Shown piece by piece: positions 31,297-40,467 of a stretch of 40,628 nt of DNA. The position numbers were made by a program, and so were the translations under genes. The DNA is from an uncultured Chthonomonas sp. Its GTDB lineage: Bacteria > Armatimonadota > Chthonomonadetes > Chthonomonadales > CAJBBX01. The notes under the pieces were generated by a model. The model did not search any database. It was not told where the DNA came from and worked only from the letters and a program-made list of their open reading frames with translations. Numbering within the stretch: the first letter of the stretch is position 1; each line of letters starts with the position of its first letter. The DNA is taken from positions 1 through 40,628 of the forward strand of contig CAISJD010000197.1 in assembly GCA_903885605.1 (NCBI GenBank), given 5' to 3'.

Positions 31297-32664
31297 CTAA
31301 CGCGTTCGCTTGCTCCGCATCAGTTTCTCGATGCCCGCTGCGTCGGACGGCAGGCCGGGCGTCAGCTTCTCGGCGCCGCGGTCGGTCACCGCGAAGTCGT
31401 CCTCGATCCGGATGCCGATGCCCTCGCCGGGTATGTAGAGGCCCGGCTCGATGGTGAGAACCATGCCCGGCTCCAGCGTGGCGGCCATGCTGCCCACGTC
31501 ATGGACATCCATGCCCAGCCAGTGGCTGATGGAGTGGGCAAAGAACGTGTCCATGGTCCGTTCCGTGCCGTCGTCTGCTCGTGCCCGCAAGGGGCTCTCC
31601 CGGAAAAGCCGGCGCGCCAGGGCGTTGAGGTCTCCGAGGGTGGTCTTGCCGGGCACTACCGCCTCGGATGCTGCCTTCTGAACGGCCAGAACAAGGTCGT
31701 AGACCTGCCGCTGCCGCGGCGTGAACTTGCCGCCCACAGGGAAGGTGCGGGTGACATCGCCTGAGAAGCAGCGGACCTCGGCCCCGATGTCCACGACGAC
31801 GAGCTCTCCGGCGGCCATGGCGCGCTCCGACGAGGTGTGGTGCAGGACGGTTGCATTGGGGCCGCTGCCGACGATGCAGGGAAATCCCTCGCGCGCCGCG
31901 CCCTTGCGGCGGAAGCCGGCGAGGATCTCGCCCTCCACCGCGAGTTCGGTCGCGCCGGGGCGAATGGAGCGCGCCGCGCCCTCCATGCCCTCGATCGTGG
32001 CGGCGCCGGCGGCGCGGATCGCGTCCAGTTCCGCGGCGCTCTTCCTCAGGCGCATGGGAGCAATGAGACGGCCCACATCCAGTATCTCCGCATCAGGGTT
32101 TATGGCGCGGATCCGGTCGATGGTCCTGCCGGCGTGCGTGTACCGGGCCGCCTCGCCGACGGGACCCAGGATGTAGACCCGTGGAGCCTTACGGATCGAT
32201 GGAGTGAGCTCGTCCCACATGTCCCAGAGGCGATGGACCGGATCGATGCCTGTCGCGGCTACCGCGTCAGGGCCGGGGGAGAGGTATGCCTCGCCGAACC
32301 GGGTCGCCGCGCCGCCGGTCGGGGGCAGGTAGAGGGCGGCATTGGCGTTCAGCGGGTCGTCCGGCGGCACGATGGCCAGGGCTGCCGAGGGCGCCGATAC
32401 GCCGGTCAGGTAGAACAGGTTGCTCTCCGGACGGAACTTGCCCTCCTCACCGGCCGGGCCGCCGATGAGCAGCACCATGCCGTTGCCGGCAGCCTTTCGC
32501 AGGGCGGCGCGGCGGGCCGCAAAGTCGGCCAGCGGCTGGCCGGACGCGCTGGGATCGCCGACTAGCCGGGGTCCATCAGCGGCTCCGCGCGTGAGCGCAG
32601 GGACGATCAGGGCCGCTACTGCGAGCAGCAGCAGCCCTGTCTTGCGTGGCGTTGGGCCGATCAC
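31297..32664 (-). CDS. pepP: Exported Xaa-Pro aminopeptidase (M24B)
   Basis: A 455-residue metallopeptidase that removes an N-terminal residue preceding proline. A signal peptide (LLLLAVAALIVPALTRGAADG) indicates export, unlike cytosolic PepP. The N-terminal creatinase-like domain contains LFYLTGVSAPSAAL. The pita-bread domain supplies the five dimetal ligands: Asp in VVVDIGAE, Asp in FSGDVTRTF, His in HWLGMDVHDVG, Glu in LTIEPGLY and Glu in IRIEDDF. The GTG at 32664 overlaps the stop of the multihaem cytochrome gene by 4 bases, suggesting coupled translation, though a functional link is unclear. Confidence 0.93.
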   Translation of the reverse strand: MIGPTPRKTGLLLLAVAALIVPALTRGAADGPRLVGDPSASGQPLADFAARRAALRKAAGNGMVLLIGGPAGEEGKFRPESNLFYLTGVSAPSAALAIVPPDDPLNANAALYLPPTGGAATRFGEAYLSPGPDAVAATGIDPVHRLWDMWDELTPSIRKAPRVYILGPVGEAARYTHAGRTIDRIRAINPDAEILDVGRLIAPMRLRKSAAELDAIRAAGAATIEGMEGAARSIRPGATELAVEGEILAGFRRKGAAREGFPCIVGSGPNATVLHHTSSERAMAAGELVVVDIGAEVRCFSGDVTRTFPVGGKFTPRQRQVYDLVLAVQKAASEAVVPGKTTLGDLNALARRLFRESPLRARADDGTERTMDTFFAHSISHWLGMDVHDVGSMAATLEPGMVLTIEPGLYIPGEGIGIRIEDDFAVTDRGAEKLTPGLPSDAAGIEKLMRSKRTR

Positions 32665-34439
32665 GGCTTCGCTGTATCGTCAGCGCCTGCAGTAGCCGCC
32701 CGTGCCTCGATGTGCGCCAATTCCAGCGGGTGCTCGTGCTGCATCTCGCTCTCGGTCTTGATGCCGTTGTAGAAGGTCTTGGCCATCGGGAAGCTGTCTG
32801 GGTTGAAGTGGGCGTTATACAGGTGCCAGGTCAGGATGGCCAGGAACGCCAGGATGGCTTCATCGCTATGCGCTATGTACGCGGCCGAGACCCCGGCCTC
32901 GGGCAGCAGGTTGCCGTAGTAGATGGGGAACCAGAGCACCAAGCCCGAGAAGACCATGATGGGCATACCCCAGTAGACGGCAAAGTAGTCGAACTTCTCC
33001 TTAAACTGGAATCGTCCGTACTTCGGCGCCTCTTTCCAGAGGCCCAGGTAGAACATCGTGACCTGTACGAAGTCCGACAGGTCCTTCCACGTTGGGAACA
33101 TGGTCCACGACGACAGCTTGAACCCGGCCTTCTTCCAGCGGTAGACCAGGTAGGCGGTATGCCAGACCCACGTGATCATCATCACCACGGCGGCTACACG
33201 GTGGATGACCCGTGCAACGGCCATGCCGCCCAACAGGGCGTAGAGCTGGTTGAGCCAGGGAGTTTCGGCAAACCGGAGCGGCAGGCCCGTCAGAACCAGA
33301 GCCGTGAAGCTGAGGGCCAGGCAGATGTGCTGGGTGCGCTGGGCGACCGTGAGGCGCAGGAATGTGCGCTCGCCGGCCGGCTTGGGCCGGCGCCTGCTGT
33401 GGGCGGAGTGGACGACGAACGCCAGCGCCATCACGCCCACGGCGACGGCCGCCACAAGCCCCGCCCGATCGCTACCGAGGAAGGCCATGGCAAGTGATGT
33501 AGCCAGGGCCAGGAAACTGGCGGAGATAAGCGCCGCGACGGGTCTGCCCGAGCGAGGCGGCGTCTTGCCGAAGACCTTCAGCCGCAGGTCGAGCGCGATG
33601 CCGCCCATCAGGAAGAGCACGGTGCCGATCGTCAGCCACTTGAAGAAGAGCTCCTCGTAGTGGAGGCCCGGGGTCTTCTTGACCTTCAGGCGCAGGTGGT
33701 TGGCGCCTGACATGGCGAAGTTCACCTTGGCGCCGACGTGGCAGCCGGCCTTGCCGCACGTCGCGGCGGCTACGTCGCGGTGGGTGGGCGAGCCGGCGTC
33801 GGCATGGCCCTTTACCGCATGGTTGCCGTGACAGTCAACGCAACCCGCTACCTTCTTGTTCCCGAACCGGAGTAGCGCCTTGCCGTGGAAGCTCTCGCGG
33901 TAGGAGGGCACCGCATCGGTATCGACGCCGTACCTCGCCATGCGGGCCGCCTCGCTGTGGCATCGTGAGCATGTCTCGGTGGCGTGGACACGGTCCCCTT
34001 TGGTTCGGGTCACGCTATGGGGATCGCCGCCGGCGCCTGCGTGGCAGGTGATGCAGGTCGGATGGTCGCCTGCCGTCTTGTCGGAGCGCCCATGGACGCT
34101 GGCCGCATACGCCGTCTGCTGGTCCGGATGGCACATGCCGCAGTCGACCTTGGAGGCCTTCATCGGCTCGGTATGGGGCGCTGCGGTGATGGCGGTATGG
34201 CAACCCGTGCAGCCGTTATCCTTGTGGGGTCCGGCGGCGATGGCCTTGGCGTTGACGGCGCGGTGGGCGCCCATCTCGGACTCGTGGCACTCCAGGCATT
34301 TGGCGTCAGTTAGCGTCTCACCGGCAGACGGCGATTCTGACTGGCCCAGTGCCGTGGCGCCAAGCAGCGCAGCCAACGGGGCCGCAGCCACCAGAGCCCA
34401 CGCTCCGGGCCTGCCCATCATCCATCTCGGTAGTCTCAT
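32661..34439 (-). CDS. Multihaem cytochrome c / cytochrome b fusion protein
   Basis: A 592-residue membrane electron-transfer protein. After a signal or anchor segment (residues ~12-32) the periplasmic part has six CXXCH haem c sites at 48-52, 77-81, 100-104, 129-133, 157-161 and 200-204. A seventh candidate, CGKAGCH at 228-234, has four spacer residues. Membrane helices start near 265, with four in the C-terminal domain holding likely haem b histidines (TQHICL, VIHRVAAV, VWHTAYL, LTWHLYNAHF). This resembles cytochrome b561/hydrogenase-type domains, so the protein may move electrons between the quinone pool and periplasmic carriers. ATG 34439 has GGGGGAG upstream. No terminal reductase subunit is nearby. 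Confidence 0.9.
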   Translation of the reverse strand: MRLPRWMMGRPGAWALVAAAPLAALLGATALGQSESPSAGETLTDAKCLECHESEMGAHRAVNAKAIAAGPHKDNGCTGCHTAITAAPHTEPMKASKVDCGMCHPDQQTAYAASVHGRSDKTAGDHPTCITCHAGAGGDPHSVTRTKGDRVHATETCSRCHSEAARMARYGVDTDAVPSYRESFHGKALLRFGNKKVAGCVDCHGNHAVKGHADAGSPTHRDVAAATCGKAGCHVGAKVNFAMSGANHLRLKVKKTPGLHYEELFFKWLTIGTVLFLMGGIALDLRLKVFGKTPPRSGRPVAALISASFLALATSLAMAFLGSDRAGLVAAVAVGVMALAFVVHSAHSRRRPKPAGERTFLRLTVAQRTQHICLALSFTALVLTGLPLRFAETPWLNQLYALLGGMAVARVIHRVAAVVMMITWVWHTAYLVYRWKKAGFKLSSWTMFPTWKDLSDFVQVTMFYLGLWKEAPKYGRFQFKEKFDYFAVYWGMPIMVFSGLVLWFPIYYGNLLPEAGVSAAYIAHSDEAILAFLAILTWHLYNAHFNPDSFPMAKTFYNGIKTESEMQHEHPLELAHIEARAATAGADDTAKP

Positions 34440-34566
34440 CGCGAAGCTCCCCCGCGCAGATATGTCGCATGGCACGACCGGCGAATCGTCGGCCCATTCG
34501 GGAGCCTATTAGACAGCCGGGGCGCGCACTCCTGCCGGTCGCCGGCTCCCGAAGGCAATAAATGGC

Positions 34567-34600
34567 AAAATGGCCCCGCGAACCGAAGTCCGCGGGGCCA
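34567..34600 (-). terminator. Rho-independent terminator after the monohaem cytochrome pair
   Basis: On the - strand, TGGCCCCGCG (34600-34591) pairs perfectly with CGCGGGGCCA (34580-34571) around a 10-base loop and is followed at once by TTTT and an AT-rich stretch. It begins 14 bases past the stop of the cytochrome gene at 34615-34953. The remaining sequence to 34439 should hold the promoter of the multihaem gene, but none was confidently seen. Confidence 0.8.
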
Positions 34601-34614
34601 CGGGACGGTGGACC

Positions 34615-34953
34615 TTACTTGCTCTTTGGATTCCCGGGCAGCGTGCCCTTGGCGCACTCGACGCCGTTCTTGACGCCGTCCTTGTCCGAATCCAGCTTCT
34701 CGATCTTCTCGAAGGCCGCAGGTGTGATCCTTGAGGAGCCGGTGGCCTTGAGGGCCTTCTCCAGGTCGGCGCCGTACGGATTGCGCTTCAGGGTGTTGCC
34801 CACATGGCAGAGGGCGCAGCCGGCCTTAGCCTGGGCGCCGGCCGGAGGCGACTTGTAGCGCTTCGTGAACTCCGACCGAATGGCTGGTAGCGCGAAGGCC
34901 GATGTGGCCGCCAGCAGGAGGCCGACCTGAGCTATGGCGCGAGTGAGACGCAT
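34615..34953 (-). CDS. Small monohaem cytochrome c with C-terminal EF-hand-like loop (copy 2)
   Basis: A 112-residue exported protein. A signal peptide (IAQVGLLLAATSAFA) is followed by one haem c site, GCALCHVG, and the segment NPYGADLEKAL. The C-terminus has a calcium-loop-like DSDKDGVKNGVE, as in thrombospondin type 3/EF-hand repeats, and ends in a Gly/Lys/Pro tail. It is a tandem paralogue of the next gene upstream, sharing the order of haem site, YGADL and DSDKDGVKN. ATG 34953 is preferred because AGAGG lies 7 bases before it; an in-frame ATG at 34968 is possible. Probably a periplasmic electron carrier for a multihaem partner; the partner is not proven. Confidence 0.85.
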   Translation of the reverse strand: MRLTRAIAQVGLLLAATSAFALPAIRSEFTKRYKSPPAGAQAKAGCALCHVGNTLKRNPYGADLEKALKATGSSRITPAAFEKIEKLDSDKDGVKNGVECAKGTLPGNPKSK

Positions 34954-34995
34954 CTTGGAACCTCTCATGTGGCCGGCCCATGGCCGGTCGCTGCG

Positions 34996-35322
34996 TTACT
35001 TGTCCTTGGGATCGCCCGGGTTGGTGCCCTTCTTCAACTCGTCGACGTTCTTCACGCCGTCCTTGTCGGAGTCGAGCGTATCGATCTTCTTCAGCAGGTC
35101 GGCCGTGAGCTTCTTGGTCTTGGCGGCTTCCATGACCTTTTTCAGGTCGGCTCCGTACACATTGAGCTTAACGCCGGCCGTGTGGCAGCCGACGCAGGAA
35201 TCCAGCTTGGCGCCCTTCTTGATGCCGTAGGCCTCGGCGAACGGCGCCTTGAAGCCGGGCAACGCCATGGCGGCGCAGCCTGCTGCGGTCAGCGCAGCGG
35301 TTGCGATCAGACGTACCTTCAT
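34996..35322 (-). CDS. Small monohaem cytochrome c with C-terminal EF-hand-like loop (copy 1)
   Basis: A 108-residue exported protein with a signal segment (MKVRLIATAALTAAGCAAMA, in which TAAGC could serve as a lipobox). One haem c motif, SCVGCHTAG, follows near residue 43, then NVYGADLKKVM and a C-terminal DSDKDGVKNVDEL calcium-loop-like motif with an Asp/Asn/Glu pattern. ATG 35322 has GGGAGG eight bases upstream. It precedes its paralogue by 42 bases, so the pair form one short transcript ending at the terminator near 34567. Haem ligation beyond the His of CXXCH cannot be told from sequence. Confidence 0.86.
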   Translation of the reverse strand: MKVRLIATAALTAAGCAAMALPGFKAPFAEAYGIKKGAKLDSCVGCHTAGVKLNVYGADLKKVMEAAKTKKLTADLLKKIDTLDSDKDGVKNVDELKKGTNPGDPKDK

Positions 35323-35436
35323 CAAATCCTCCCAGGGATCGTGGTTACGTCCCGGCCCTGTATGGTACCGGGAACAGCGTACTCCGCCCTACGGCTACGG
35401 CACAAGCCGCTGCACCGAATGGGCGCCCATGCGCAA

Positions 35437-35453
35437 CGGGGCCTTACGCCCCG
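35437..35453 (-). terminator. Small hairpin at the end of araH
   Basis: CGGGGC (35437-35442) and GCCCCG (35448-35453) form a 6-bp stem with a 5-base loop that contains the araH stop codon. No T-run follows on the - strand, so termination here is weakly supported. Confidence 0.3.
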
Positions 35454-36418
35454 GGACGCCGTCTCATCTTGTCGAAGAGAACTGCGGCCAGGAGGATACC
35501 GCCCCGGGCCACATATTGGTAGAACGCAGGCACGCCGGCGAGGTTCATGGCATTCTGCACCGTGCCCATGATCAACACACCTACCACTACGCCTGGTAGC
35601 GTGCCAATGCCTCCCGACAAGGAAACCCCACCCAGCACGCAGGCCGAAATCACCTCCAGTGAGAAGCCCGCCGATGTGTTGGGCTGCCCGCTGGCCAGGC
35701 GTGCAGCCAGCACAACGCCGGCAAGCCCGGCCATGAGGCCCTGCACCGCGAAGATGGTGATGCGGGTGCGCACTACAGCGATGCCCGCCAGGCGGGCCGC
35801 TTCGCGGTTGCCGCCGATGGCCAGCGCCTTGCGGCCGTAACGTGTCCGGTGGAGCAGGATGCCGAAGACGATGCAGCACGCCGCAGTCAGCCACACCGGC
35901 GCCGGAATGCCAAGCAAGGCGGCGTTGCCCATCTCGATGAACTCGGCGCTCATGGCCCCGACGGCCACACCGCGGCACGAGATCAGAGCCAGGCCATGAA
36001 CGATCTGCATGGTGCCGAGCGTGGTGATCAGGGCGTTGATGCCCAACCGCGCGATCACAAAGCCATTGACCATGCCCACGGCGCCGCCCGCGGCGACGCC
36101 GCAGATGATGCCCACGGGAACGCTACCGGTGGCGTTGATGGCCATGACGGCCAGCACTCCGGACATGGCCACCACCGCCTCGACGGAGAGGTCGAAGTCG
36201 CCTGAGACCATGCAGAAGAGCATGGTGCAGGCCACTATGCCCACCATGCTCACGGAGAGCATGAGGCCCACCAGGTTGACCCAACTCAGGAACCGCGGCA
36301 AGAACAGCGACAGGGCCGCAAAGAGCGCCACGAACACCAGGAACATGCCGGCGTTGTCGCGTAGCGCGGCAGGCATGCCGCCCCGCTGGAGCCGCGTGGA
36401 GGGGGCTGGTTCAGGCAA
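35444..36418 (-). CDS. araH: AraH-like sugar ABC transporter permease
   Basis: A 324-residue inner-membrane permease with about ten hydrophobic segments. The pattern is that of the L-arabinose permease AraH: VACTMLFCMVSGDFDLSVEA, VNGFVIARLGINALITTLGT, TRYGRKALAIGGNREAARLA and ISACVLGGVSLSGGIGTLPG all match the family closely. Translation probably starts at TTG 36418, nine bases after a GAGG sequence; ATG 36376 is an alternative. It follows the AraF-like binding protein by 9 bases. The ATPase AraG, which lies between araF and araH in E. coli, is missing here, so a remote ATPase must serve it. Substrate could be arabinose or a similar monosaccharide. Confidence 0.92.
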   Translation of the reverse strand: MPEPAPSTRLQRGGMPAALRDNAGMFLVFVALFAALSLFLPRFLSWVNLVGLMLSVSMVGIVACTMLFCMVSGDFDLSVEAVVAMSGVLAVMAINATGSVPVGIICGVAAGGAVGMVNGFVIARLGINALITTLGTMQIVHGLALISCRGVAVGAMSAEFIEMGNAALLGIPAPVWLTAACCIVFGILLHRTRYGRKALAIGGNREAARLAGIAVVRTRITIFAVQGLMAGLAGVVLAARLASGQPNTSAGFSLEVISACVLGGVSLSGGIGTLPGVVVGVLIMGTVQNAMNLAGVPAFYQYVARGGILLAAVLFDKMRRRPGA

Positions 36419-38764: not shown

Positions 38765-39718
38765 TCAGGTTCCTCTGTGTCCATTGCCGATCACAACGCT
38801 GTGGCCGTCTGAGCCGTCCATCAGGAAGACTGCTGTCAGGTCCGGCCGCGTCATCAGGTAGTCTCGGGCCGCGTCGGGCCCAAGAACGTTGAAGGCGGTA
38901 GAGAGGGCATCCGTCTCGGCCGCGCACGGCCCTGCCACCCACACCGCTCGAACCCCTCGCGCCGGCCATCCGGTGCGCGGGTCCATGATATGCCCGTAGC
39001 GCCGGCCGTCGGCCACGAAGCGCTGCTCCGTGTCGGCCGAGGTCGACACCGTCTGGTCTATGAGCCCGATCGTGTGCAGCACACGGTCAGGCGCATCCAC
39101 GTCGCGCAGGTCGAAGCGCCATCCTCCGCCGCCCGGCTGTTCGCCGATGGCGACGATAGTGCTCGTGCCGCCGTGCAGGGCCGCGGATCGGACCCCGGTC
39201 CGGCGCAATGCTTCGGCCGCCATATCCAGCGCATAGCCCTTGCCGACGGCCCCGAGGTTCACCTCGATCGCCGGGTCGGGCATGGTCACGCTCCGCACAG
39301 CGTCGTCCCAGACGAGCCGTGCCGCGCCGCACTGTAAGAGTACCAGACGCACCTGCTCGTCAGTCGGCTTGCGGTGCTCCCCGTCGTGGAAGCCCCAGAG
39401 CCGCAGCAGCCTGCCCATGCCCGCGTCGAAGGCTCCCTGCGTGGCGATGCGCCACTCGTCGCATCGGCGGAGCAGTGCGTAGAGCGCCGGCTCCAGGGTG
39501 ACCGATGCATGCGGCGGTGTGGCGTTCAGGCGGGATATATCGCTCTGGGGCCGGTAGACGCTGAGCTGCGCGTCCATCTCGCTCACGAGGTCCAGGGCCG
39601 CCTCGCCCGCGCCGACCAGGATCTCGCGGTCGGTTCCGGACAGGTAGACCTCGAAGCGGCAGCCCATGGCCGGCCGCGATACCACCGGCCAGACCGTGGA
39701 AGCCCCGCGCTTGTCCAT
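38765..39718 (-). CDS. apbE: ApbE-like FAD:protein FMN transferase
   Basis: A 317-residue enzyme of the family that attaches FMN to a Thr or Ser of target flavoproteins, using FAD and magnesium. Family motifs in order are SVYRPQSDISRLN, EVNLGAVGKGYALD near residue 146, HIMDPRTGWPA near 248 and the metal-binding TDALSTAFNVLG near 275. No signal peptide or lipobox is visible at ATG 39718, whereas most ApbE proteins are exported; the open frame further upstream overlaps the preceding gene in another frame and is not used. No Rnf/Nqr subunit or other obvious target is in the window. It sits 11 bases after the SDR gene. Confidence 0.9.
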   Translation of the reverse strand: MDKRGASTVWPVVSRPAMGCRFEVYLSGTDREILVGAGEAALDLVSEMDAQLSVYRPQSDISRLNATPPHASVTLEPALYALLRRCDEWRIATQGAFDAGMGRLLRLWGFHDGEHRKPTDEQVRLVLLQCGAARLVWDDAVRSVTMPDPAIEVNLGAVGKGYALDMAAEALRRTGVRSAALHGGTSTIVAIGEQPGGGGWRFDLRDVDAPDRVLHTIGLIDQTVSTSADTEQRFVADGRRYGHIMDPRTGWPARGVRAVWVAGPCAAETDALSTAFNVLGPDAARDYLMTRPDLTAVFLMDGSDGHSVVIGNGHRGT

Positions 39719-39729
39719 ATCCGTTGCGG

Positions 39730-40467
39730 CTAGAGCGGGTCGGCCATGAACCGGCGGACCGAGATCTCGTCGGTGGCGATGTGCGGCGGCATGGCCAGCA
39801 GGTGCAAGATGGTCGAGGCCACGTCCTCGGGCTGGATCCAGCCTTGCCGGTGGCGTTCCGGGTGCACCTGGTCCGACATTCGCGTATCCACCGCGCCGGG
39901 ACAGACCGCATGGACGCGGATGCCGTGGTCTCGAAGCTCCAGCGCCATGCACTTGCTGAGCATGATGAGCGCGGCCTTCGAGGCGCAGTAAAGGCCCTGC
40001 TTGGGGTAGGGCTTCTTGCCTGAGCTGCTGGCCACGTTGACGATCCAGCCCGACCGAGCCGCCATCATCGACGGAAGAACCGCCCGGCTGCAATGGAAGG
40101 CCGCAGCCAGGTTCAGGTTCATGTGGAGGCCGAAGTCGGCGCCCGTGGTCTCCCACATGGGGGCGAACCGGGCCGTGCCGGCGTTGTTGACCAGGATCGC
40201 CACGCCTCCGAGTTCGCGCGACGCCTCCTCCACGGCTCGGAGGCACTCGTCCTCGCGCGCCAGGTCGCAGCAGACAGCCACCGACCGCCGTCCCAGCGCC
40301 CGAACCTGTTCGGCCACGGATTGCACCTCGGCCTCGGTTCGGGCCGCCACGGCCACGTCGGCGCCGGCTTGCGCCAGGGCCAGGGCCGTGGCGGCGCCGA
40401 TGCCTCGTCCGCCGCCCGTCACCAGGGCCGTCTTGCCCGCCAGGACCGGGCATTCGCAGCCGGCCAA
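39730..40467 (-). CDS. Short-chain dehydrogenase/reductase
   Basis: A 245-residue NAD(P)-dependent oxidoreductase of the classical SDR type. The cofactor loop is TGGGRGIG (17-24), the structural motif VNNAG is at about 93-97, the catalytic Ser is within VASSSGKK (147-149), and Tyr160/Lys164 are in YCASK. It is similar to 3-oxoacyl-ACP reductases, but substrate cannot be assigned from sequence. The start is TTG 40467, two bases after the ribonuclease J stop, with GGAG about ten bases upstream inside that gene. It is probably co-transcribed with ribonuclease J and ApbE. Confidence 0.93.
   Translation of the reverse strand: MAGCECPVLAGKTALVTGGGRGIGAATALALAQAGADVAVAARTEAEVQSVAEQVRALGRRSVAVCCDLAREDECLRAVEEASRELGGVAILVNNAGTARFAPMWETTGADFGLHMNLNLAAAFHCSRAVLPSMMAARSGWIVNVASSSGKKPYPKQGLYCASKAALIMLSKCMALELRDHGIRVHAVCPGAVDTRMSDQVHPERHRQGWIQPEDVASTILHLLAMPPHIATDEISVRRFMADPL

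Follow-up and report, generated by a model that had tools for sequence, protein, structure and literature searches.

What might two adjacent genes for small, putatively exported proteins, each of which joins a single haem c motif to an EF-hand-type loop, contribute to an uncultured Chthonomonas sp. of the phylum Armatimonadota? The genes lie in the window, by which we mean the whole stretch of 40,628 nucleotides that was analysed, and a sequence-only reading had described their products as two adjacent small secreted proteins with one CXXCH, a YGADL segment and a DSDKDGVKN loop each. Both open reading frames bear this description out. The proteins and their motifs, in coordinates of the window, are the following:

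34615-34968, minus strand: protein A, 117 aa, a paralogue of B; the open reading frame has a signal-peptide-like start (judged by eye), a CXXCH and the loop

34804-34818, minus strand: CXXCH of A (CALCH)

34657-34692, minus strand: 12-residue EF-hand-type loop of A, DSDKDGVKNGVE

34996-35325, minus strand: protein B, 109 aa, with a signal-peptide-like start (judged by eye), a CXXCH, an N-V-Y-G segment and an EF-hand-type loop

35182-35196, minus strand: CXXCH of B (CVGCH)

35038-35073, minus strand: 12-residue EF-hand-type loop of B, DSDKDGVKNVDE

Two starts are available for protein B, a TTG at 35325 and the next ATG at 35322, the latter being the end given in the earlier description. The YGADL motif and an N-x-Y-G segment are common to A and B, and in both proteins DSDKDGVKN forms part of a complete loop of 12 residues, the last of which is Glu. 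The two proteins are 42% identical. They had been called tandem, and a recent tandem duplication was considered as their origin and rejected: each sits with its own orthologues in a different clade, in a tree of 126 rows and few columns in which 39 of the 123 inner branches are well supported and the support values themselves are rough. B has an orthologue with 92% identity in a record titled uncultured Chthonomonas sp., a genus of the order Chthonomonadales, and dN/dS within the genus (three pairs for each protein) is 0.16-0.18 for A and 0.08-0.38 for B. A and B are the only copies of the domain in the window's genome (5.6 Mb in 211 contigs), two extra places with E-values of 0.15 and 1.4 being taken as noise. 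As regards a plasmid or phage origin, B was without a match in the plasmid collection and neither A nor B matched PHROGs.

The domain is found across the phylum. When B was used as query, 35 of 61 genomes (the window's genome and 60 relatives) gave a match; with a 28-row alignment as query, 123 of the 291 genomes of the phylum did, as did 95 of the 194 with a completeness of 90% or more and a contamination of 5% or less. The window and 100 stretches chosen from the hits, of which 99 out of 101 contain family members, yielded a set of 132 homologous proteins, whose genes were called by a simple longest-ORF script that leaves some starts over-long. This set comprises 91 short proteins (78 of them under 150 aa as called), 35 proteins with a C-terminal DUF2231-type region and six in which the domain occupies the N-terminus of a long protein. 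In the fused proteins (L057, L058, L060, L064, L131 and others) the domain precedes the DUF2231 membrane region, which is listed in Pfam as a predicted membrane protein without function; Pfam confirmed DUF2231 in all three fused proteins tested, the others being labelled by length and an HFP motif. Several His recur in the DUF2231 region of the printed fused sequences (HPxxVHFP, GHxGG), and these might form a b-type haem site. The long proteins measure 802-939 aa (L065:4811-7627, L073:1078-3771, L076:3012-5807, L167, L168 and L169), and PSCyt2/PSD1 (DUF1549/DUF1553) is present in the one from L065, the single long protein tested with Pfam. One member of the short class, L165:6065-6574, has a C-terminal YHS domain (1.8e-13). 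A wider search gave three loci, one of which is a Candidatus Eremiobacteria record; there, a protein of 513 aa (L036:5980-7521, start CSVCHTQVPALNAYG) has CXXCH-LNAYG and is without the calcium loop.

A and B reach no Pfam or NCBIfam cut-off. Both match the N-terminal third of NF041762 diheme_GEGP, A at 5.8e-9 (35.6 bits, from before the CXXCH to the end) and B at 2.9e-12 (46.5 bits, with the best stretch running from after the CXXCH to the end). However, NF041762 is a di-haem family of 359 positions with a cut-off of 300 bits and two haem motifs, whereas A and B are monohaem proteins of about 110 aa that score far below this value with one CXXCH each. Two of 14 control genomes gave a match to this model under its cut-off, and none of 21 genomes gave one above it. 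Literature searches for a family combining haem c with an EF-hand returned nothing apparently relevant except TfcP, which is considered below, and among papers on DUF2231 with cytochrome c or on Armatimonadetes c-type cytochromes none dealt, by title or abstract, with this haem-calcium family. Judged by sequence, A and B belong to a large undescribed family, whose domain stands alone, before DUF2231 or before DUF1549/DUF1553. A chain of about 110 residues that combines a haem c motif with an EF-hand-type loop had been called unusual; the combination is real and conserved phylum-wide, and A and B are described by no Pfam, NCBIfam or PHROGs model above cut-off. The pairing of CXXCH and loop is not due to chance. 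Among 4448 ORFs of 60-140 aa, drawn from the window and the 100 stretches picked from family hits and therefore a gauge of motif frequency and not of genomes, 61 contain a CXXCH with the strict 12-residue loop, every one of them from the family; in the 4375 small ORFs from outside the family the loop occurs in none and the CXXCH in 17.

The sequence-only reading had made its case depend on conservation of the Asp-rich loop in homologues, and the loop is indeed conserved. The acidic set (Asp at position 1, Asp or Asn at positions 3 and 5, Glu or Asp at position 12) is kept in 114 of the 132 homologues, that is in 82/91 short, 26/35 DUF2231-fused and 6/6 long proteins. Because it is broken in the other 18/132 (9/91 short and 9/35 DUF2231-fused), any function common to the whole family does not require calcium. 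In EF-hands, the ligands are provided by loop positions 1, 3, 5, 9 and 12. The only invariant columns of the 28-row alignment are C44, C47, H48, N55, G58, P103, D85, D87, D89, N93 and E96, and the last five are loop positions 1, 3, 5, 9 and 12; N93 is found in 91/91 short proteins. Loop positions 7, 8, 10 and 11 (91, 92, 94 and 95 of the alignment) vary much more than the acidic set. The non-ligand positions 86 and 88 are also well kept (86/91 and 78/91 short proteins), and the Gly at loop position 6 is replaced in 7/91. Five of the nine loop-broken short members form one clade in one genus. At L135, L171 and L176, a short protein and a nearby DUF2231-fused protein are both loop-broken; at L051, L127 and L155, the loop is broken in only one of two members. 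Joint loop loss in short and fused neighbours is a hint at most.

In A and B the EF-hand loop pattern (acidic or amide residues at positions 1, 3, 5 and 9, Glu or Asp at position 12) is complete. This 12-residue loop with side-chain ligand positions is shared with EF-hand proteins and bacterial TSP3 repeats, but in A and B a single loop shares a small domain with a haem c site, and a paired helix-loop-helix is absent, there being one loop per domain. Pfam gave no EF-hand family for A or B at an E-value of 1 or less, and each of the four Pfam EF-hand models finds between 2 and 6 of the 108 members. The Asp-rich loop might be only a bacterial TSP3-like tail, structural or used for surface attachment, with calcium unlinked to the haem. 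TSP3_bac (PF18884) matches 29 of 108 members at an E-value of 0.5 or less, staying below the 25-bit cut-off in all individually listed members (the highest at 23.0, B at 12.5 bits, A without a match), and the broken acidic sets would also agree with such a tail. The domain nevertheless has a single loop and no tandem repeat, and in the AlphaFold 2 (AF2) model the loop is placed with confidence within one compact domain. We consider this explanation rather unlikely. A calcium-dependent redox behaviour or assembly, as had been suggested for A and B, is possible.

The AF2 model, made from 108 mature domains, reached a pLDDT of 93.3 and a pTM of 0.85, an earlier model from 28 full-length rows being weaker (78.8 and 0.65). 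Its helices span residues 2-12, 35-46, 54-58 and 72-78; a short strand runs from the His of the CXXCH, and the loop separates the third helix from the fourth. Neither model found a PDB fold match at an E-value of 0.001 or less; the few matches returned were to AAA proteins, caspases, the proteasome and others (E 3.4 to 9.7, Z 2.1-2.4), with no cytochrome among them, and give no firm guide to the fold. When the profile of the 108 mature domains was compared with the PDB, the calmodulin EF-hand (profile 43-80) and cytochrome subunits around the CXXCH were recovered by weak whole-chain matches (best E 5.4e-4) in which the single stretches are weak too. B alone, with a best E of 0.02, gave weak matches to PDB sequences of calcium photoproteins, parvalbumins and nitrate reductase. 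Class I monohaem cytochromes c (Cytochrom_C, PF00034) resemble A and B in being small and exported with one CXXCH, and are matched weakly by 38 of 108 members (best 1.3e-4), B scoring 19.3 bits for a cut-off of 21.3 and A having no match. Unlike these cytochromes, the family of A and B is without a conserved distal Met or His and has an EF-hand-type C-terminal half. Temptins are secreted eukaryotic pheromone proteins, and the temptin C-terminal domain (Temptin_C, PF24784) matches 60 of the 108 family members scanned at an E-value of 0.5 or less. The best value among them, 5.4e-6, is that of L123:5753-6007, which lies just over the cut-off (27.2 vs 27 bits, residues 25-74, from the CXXCH through the loop). 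It is the one that passes among 30 individually listed members other than A and B; 29 do not. Several of the Temptin_C matches run from the CXXCH via N-P-[YF]-G to the loop. As for the window's own proteins, A stays below the cut-off at 13.9 bits and B has no match. Going by these profile matches, the haem-bearing domain described here may be distantly related to the temptin C-terminal domain.

The haem side of the domain is conserved in its attachment motif and lacks an evident second ligand. CXXCH is present in 132/132 homologues, and no Met or His column outside it is conserved among them. Neither Met nor His follows the CXXCH in 29 of 90 short members; in 19 of the 90, A included, the whole mature part is without Met or His outside the CXXCH, and these 19 are thus without ordinary His/Met or His/His ligation. 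B has one Met, which is missing from its close orthologue in G001, itself one of the 19. The near-constant residues of the short form are F29 (83/91), Y33 (82), N55 (89), Y/F57 (91), G58 (91) and P103 (90). Loop position 12 is followed immediately by an additional Cys in A and in its two orthologues from the genus; this residue might ligate the haem or form a disulphide. In cytochrome f, the haem is ligated by the N-terminal amine. The predicted mature start of the short members lies 24 residues before the CXXCH in 85/91 and 22 residues before it in five (B, its two genus orthologues, L151 and L163), the remaining one being cut at a contig end, and Pro is found at position 23 in only 46/91. 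This predicted spacing would be compatible with a cytochrome f-like ligation by the N-terminal amine.

A haem of this kind could be five-coordinate and bind O2, NO or CO, with calcium tuning the binding, in which case the proteins would be sensors or scavengers of a gas or small ligand. The missing Met/His column and the 29 short members with neither residue after the CXXCH speak for such a role, but the short form is too small for an output domain and no sensor-type neighbours were noticed in the loci viewed, which were inspected unsystematically. We regard it as quite unlikely. An unusual haem ligation is reported for TfcP of Myxococcus xanthus, an exported monohaem c protein that is connected with calcium and stimulates calcium binding by PilY1 (PMC8833165). 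A and B might likewise be calcium-responsive accessory proteins, in which the haem is structural or regulatory and which aid the calcium-dependent assembly of a surface complex. This explanation stays alive because TfcP shows a monohaem c protein with unusual ligation serving calcium biology and not respiration (PMC8833165); it also agrees with the 19 short members in which His/Met or His/His ligation is impossible and with the strong conservation of the loop. However, in the Myxococcus system the calcium motif sits in the partner on which TfcP acts, PilY1, and TfcP differs from A and B by a distal Cys in place of Met and a charged C-terminal helix; an EF-type loop of its own, as found in A and B, is not mentioned in the portion of its description considered (PMC8833165). 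The multihaem-rich neighbourhood of the short genes stands against an accessory role as well, and we hold this explanation to be improbable.

In that neighbourhood, a protein with at least four CXXCH is encoded within two genes of the short gene in 34 of 72 loci. Such proteins account for 47 of the 264 genes from outside the family that lie no more than two genes from a short gene vs 13 of 304 beyond three genes. Neighbours were labelled by their similarity to the window's cytochrome b part and to the genes of L130 (genome G119), and Pfam and NCBIfam back the L130 labels except that of the barrel, which was given for a Phe at the C-terminus and a strand-like periodicity that was nearly as high in an unrelated soluble control. 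With these labels, a CbcL-like protein (6- to 13-haem plus cytochrome b561) is found in 21/72 short-gene loci, in 19/72 on the same strand and no more than 1 kb away; 25/72 have a 7- to 8-haem protein, with a barrel-like protein in the same stretch in 23 of the 25. Barrel-like proteins occur in 24 of the 72 loci, CcmF in 23, CcmE in 12, NapC-type proteins in nine and a 9-haem-type protein, in some cases shortened by the stretch end, in 13. None of these neighbour types was found in the 21 loci that have only the DUF2231-fused form. In 14 loci two short genes are neighbours, and in 10 a short gene adjoins a fused one. The barrel-like neighbours of 540 aa had no Pfam or NCBIfam match, and the one tried against the PDB had none there.

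The 9-haem protein of L130 matches the DmsE-family decahaem cytochromes at 1.1e-55, with 188.9 bits vs a cut-off of 192.2, and a 9-haem protein beside a barrel-like one, as found in related loci and on contig C201, may correspond to a conduit of the MtrCAB/PioAB type. Contig C201 belongs to the window's own genome and carries 9-haem, barrel-like and 8-haem genes in a row (L194:8183-12462), a gene set that would be a possible porin-cytochrome conduit. The 8-haem protein encoded there has a lipoprotein-like start. When every architecture is counted and relatedness is ignored, the domain occurs in 53 of 61 genomes with an 8-haem protein and in 70 of 230 others. Many of the cluster-bearing genomes are presumably Fimbriimonadia. 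Narrow literature searches found no paper on porin-cytochromes in Armatimonadota or on extracellular electron transfer in Fimbriimonadaceae.

Around A and B themselves, the window contains the following features:

34572-34599, minus strand: GC-rich hairpin, a probable terminator after A, missing from the consensus scan

32661-34475, minus strand: membrane protein with a hexahaem c part and cytochrome b561, of CbcL-like layout; likely start ATG 34439

35444-36418: ABC-type permease gene (BPD_transp_2)

A and B had been said to form their own transcript ending at a strong terminator. The 3' end is credible, given the hairpin after A, which has a tail of four T where the consensus scan requires five; the same stem is found in G001 with a T5 tail, and at the corresponding place after A, G002 has another strong hairpin, which lacks a T run. 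The start of such a transcript gained no support, the scan of the window giving no promoter match for the A/B pair. With the hairpin between them, co-transcription of A with the CbcL-like gene is doubtful in the window. The product of the latter has six CXXCH and matches Ni_hydr_CYTB (8e-12) and Cytochrome_C7 (3.8e-8) in Pfam. In G002, a member of the same genus, A is followed by a NapC/NirT-like gene, truncated where the contig ends, and not by a CbcL-like one. An ApbE family protein (2.7e-63) is encoded at 38765-39733 on the minus strand, about 3.4 kb from the cytochrome pair.

We propose that A and B are periplasmic electron carriers with a structural calcium site in a chain of the porin-cytochrome type, a reading to which we assign a probability of roughly 0.5. 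The sequences, their conservation, the absence of Met and His in 19 of 90 and the gene neighbourhood are what we observed; haem attachment, calcium binding, the partners, the direction of electron flow and the stabilising role of calcium are what we infer. Both proteins would be exported; the N-terminal half would bind haem via the CXXCH, and the C-terminal half would form a single EF-hand-like helix-loop-helix holding one calcium ion. Electrons would be taken from a quinol-oxidising inner-membrane multihaem/cytochrome b protein encoded beside A and B and passed to multihaem proteins leading to the outer membrane, for which the gene set on contig C201 is a candidate. The product of 32661-34475 is proposed as the redox partner, since a CbcL-like protein is encoded within 1 kb and on the same strand in 19 of the 72 short-gene loci. 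In class I cytochromes c, the loop with the Met ligand lies in the C-terminal half. Calcium would most likely stabilise the equivalent part of the chain in A and B, and the haem would thereby be left with an unusual or missing sixth ligand.

A comparable arrangement exists in Geobacter, where CbcL consists of a b-type membrane part and a nine-haem periplasmic part, with the small cytochrome PpcA as putative partner (PMC9129911). The likeness lies in an inner-membrane protein with multihaem c and b-type parts that has a putative partner in a small periplasmic cytochrome. Nine c haems are described for CbcL (PMC9129911), whereas six CXXCH are found in the window's protein, and PpcA is trihaem, in contrast to A and B with their one haem motif and calcium-type loop. 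By analogy, we propose that A and B would take a PpcA-like place in electron export. Several observations count against the carrier reading. No CbcL-like gene lies within 1 kb in 53/72 loci and no 7- to 8-haem gene is present in 47/72, in stretches that reach about 6-8 kb out or stop where the contig does. The broken loops (18/132) and the lack of a PDB fold match at an E-value of 0.001 or less count against it too. Moreover, electron carriers are not usually built around a haem that lacks a strong sixth ligand. In another reading, the EF-hand calcium site would replace the distal-ligand loop in a new minimal haem domain, in which the iron is open or unusually bound, for instance by a Lys, by the near-invariant Asn55, by the amine of the mature N-terminus or by the extra Cys of A, and calcium would set the redox or ligand-binding state and thus act as a switch of electron export in Armatimonadota; we find this unlikely.

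The missing distal haem ligand, the fusion forms and the multihaem neighbourhood in related genomes go beyond what the sequence-only reading had noticed. The loop-broken members that exist in nature (9/91 short proteins) are ready controls for the role of calcium. If the carrier reading is right, the family would show how haem c and calcium sites can be coupled within one small natural protein that has no canonical second ligand to its haem.
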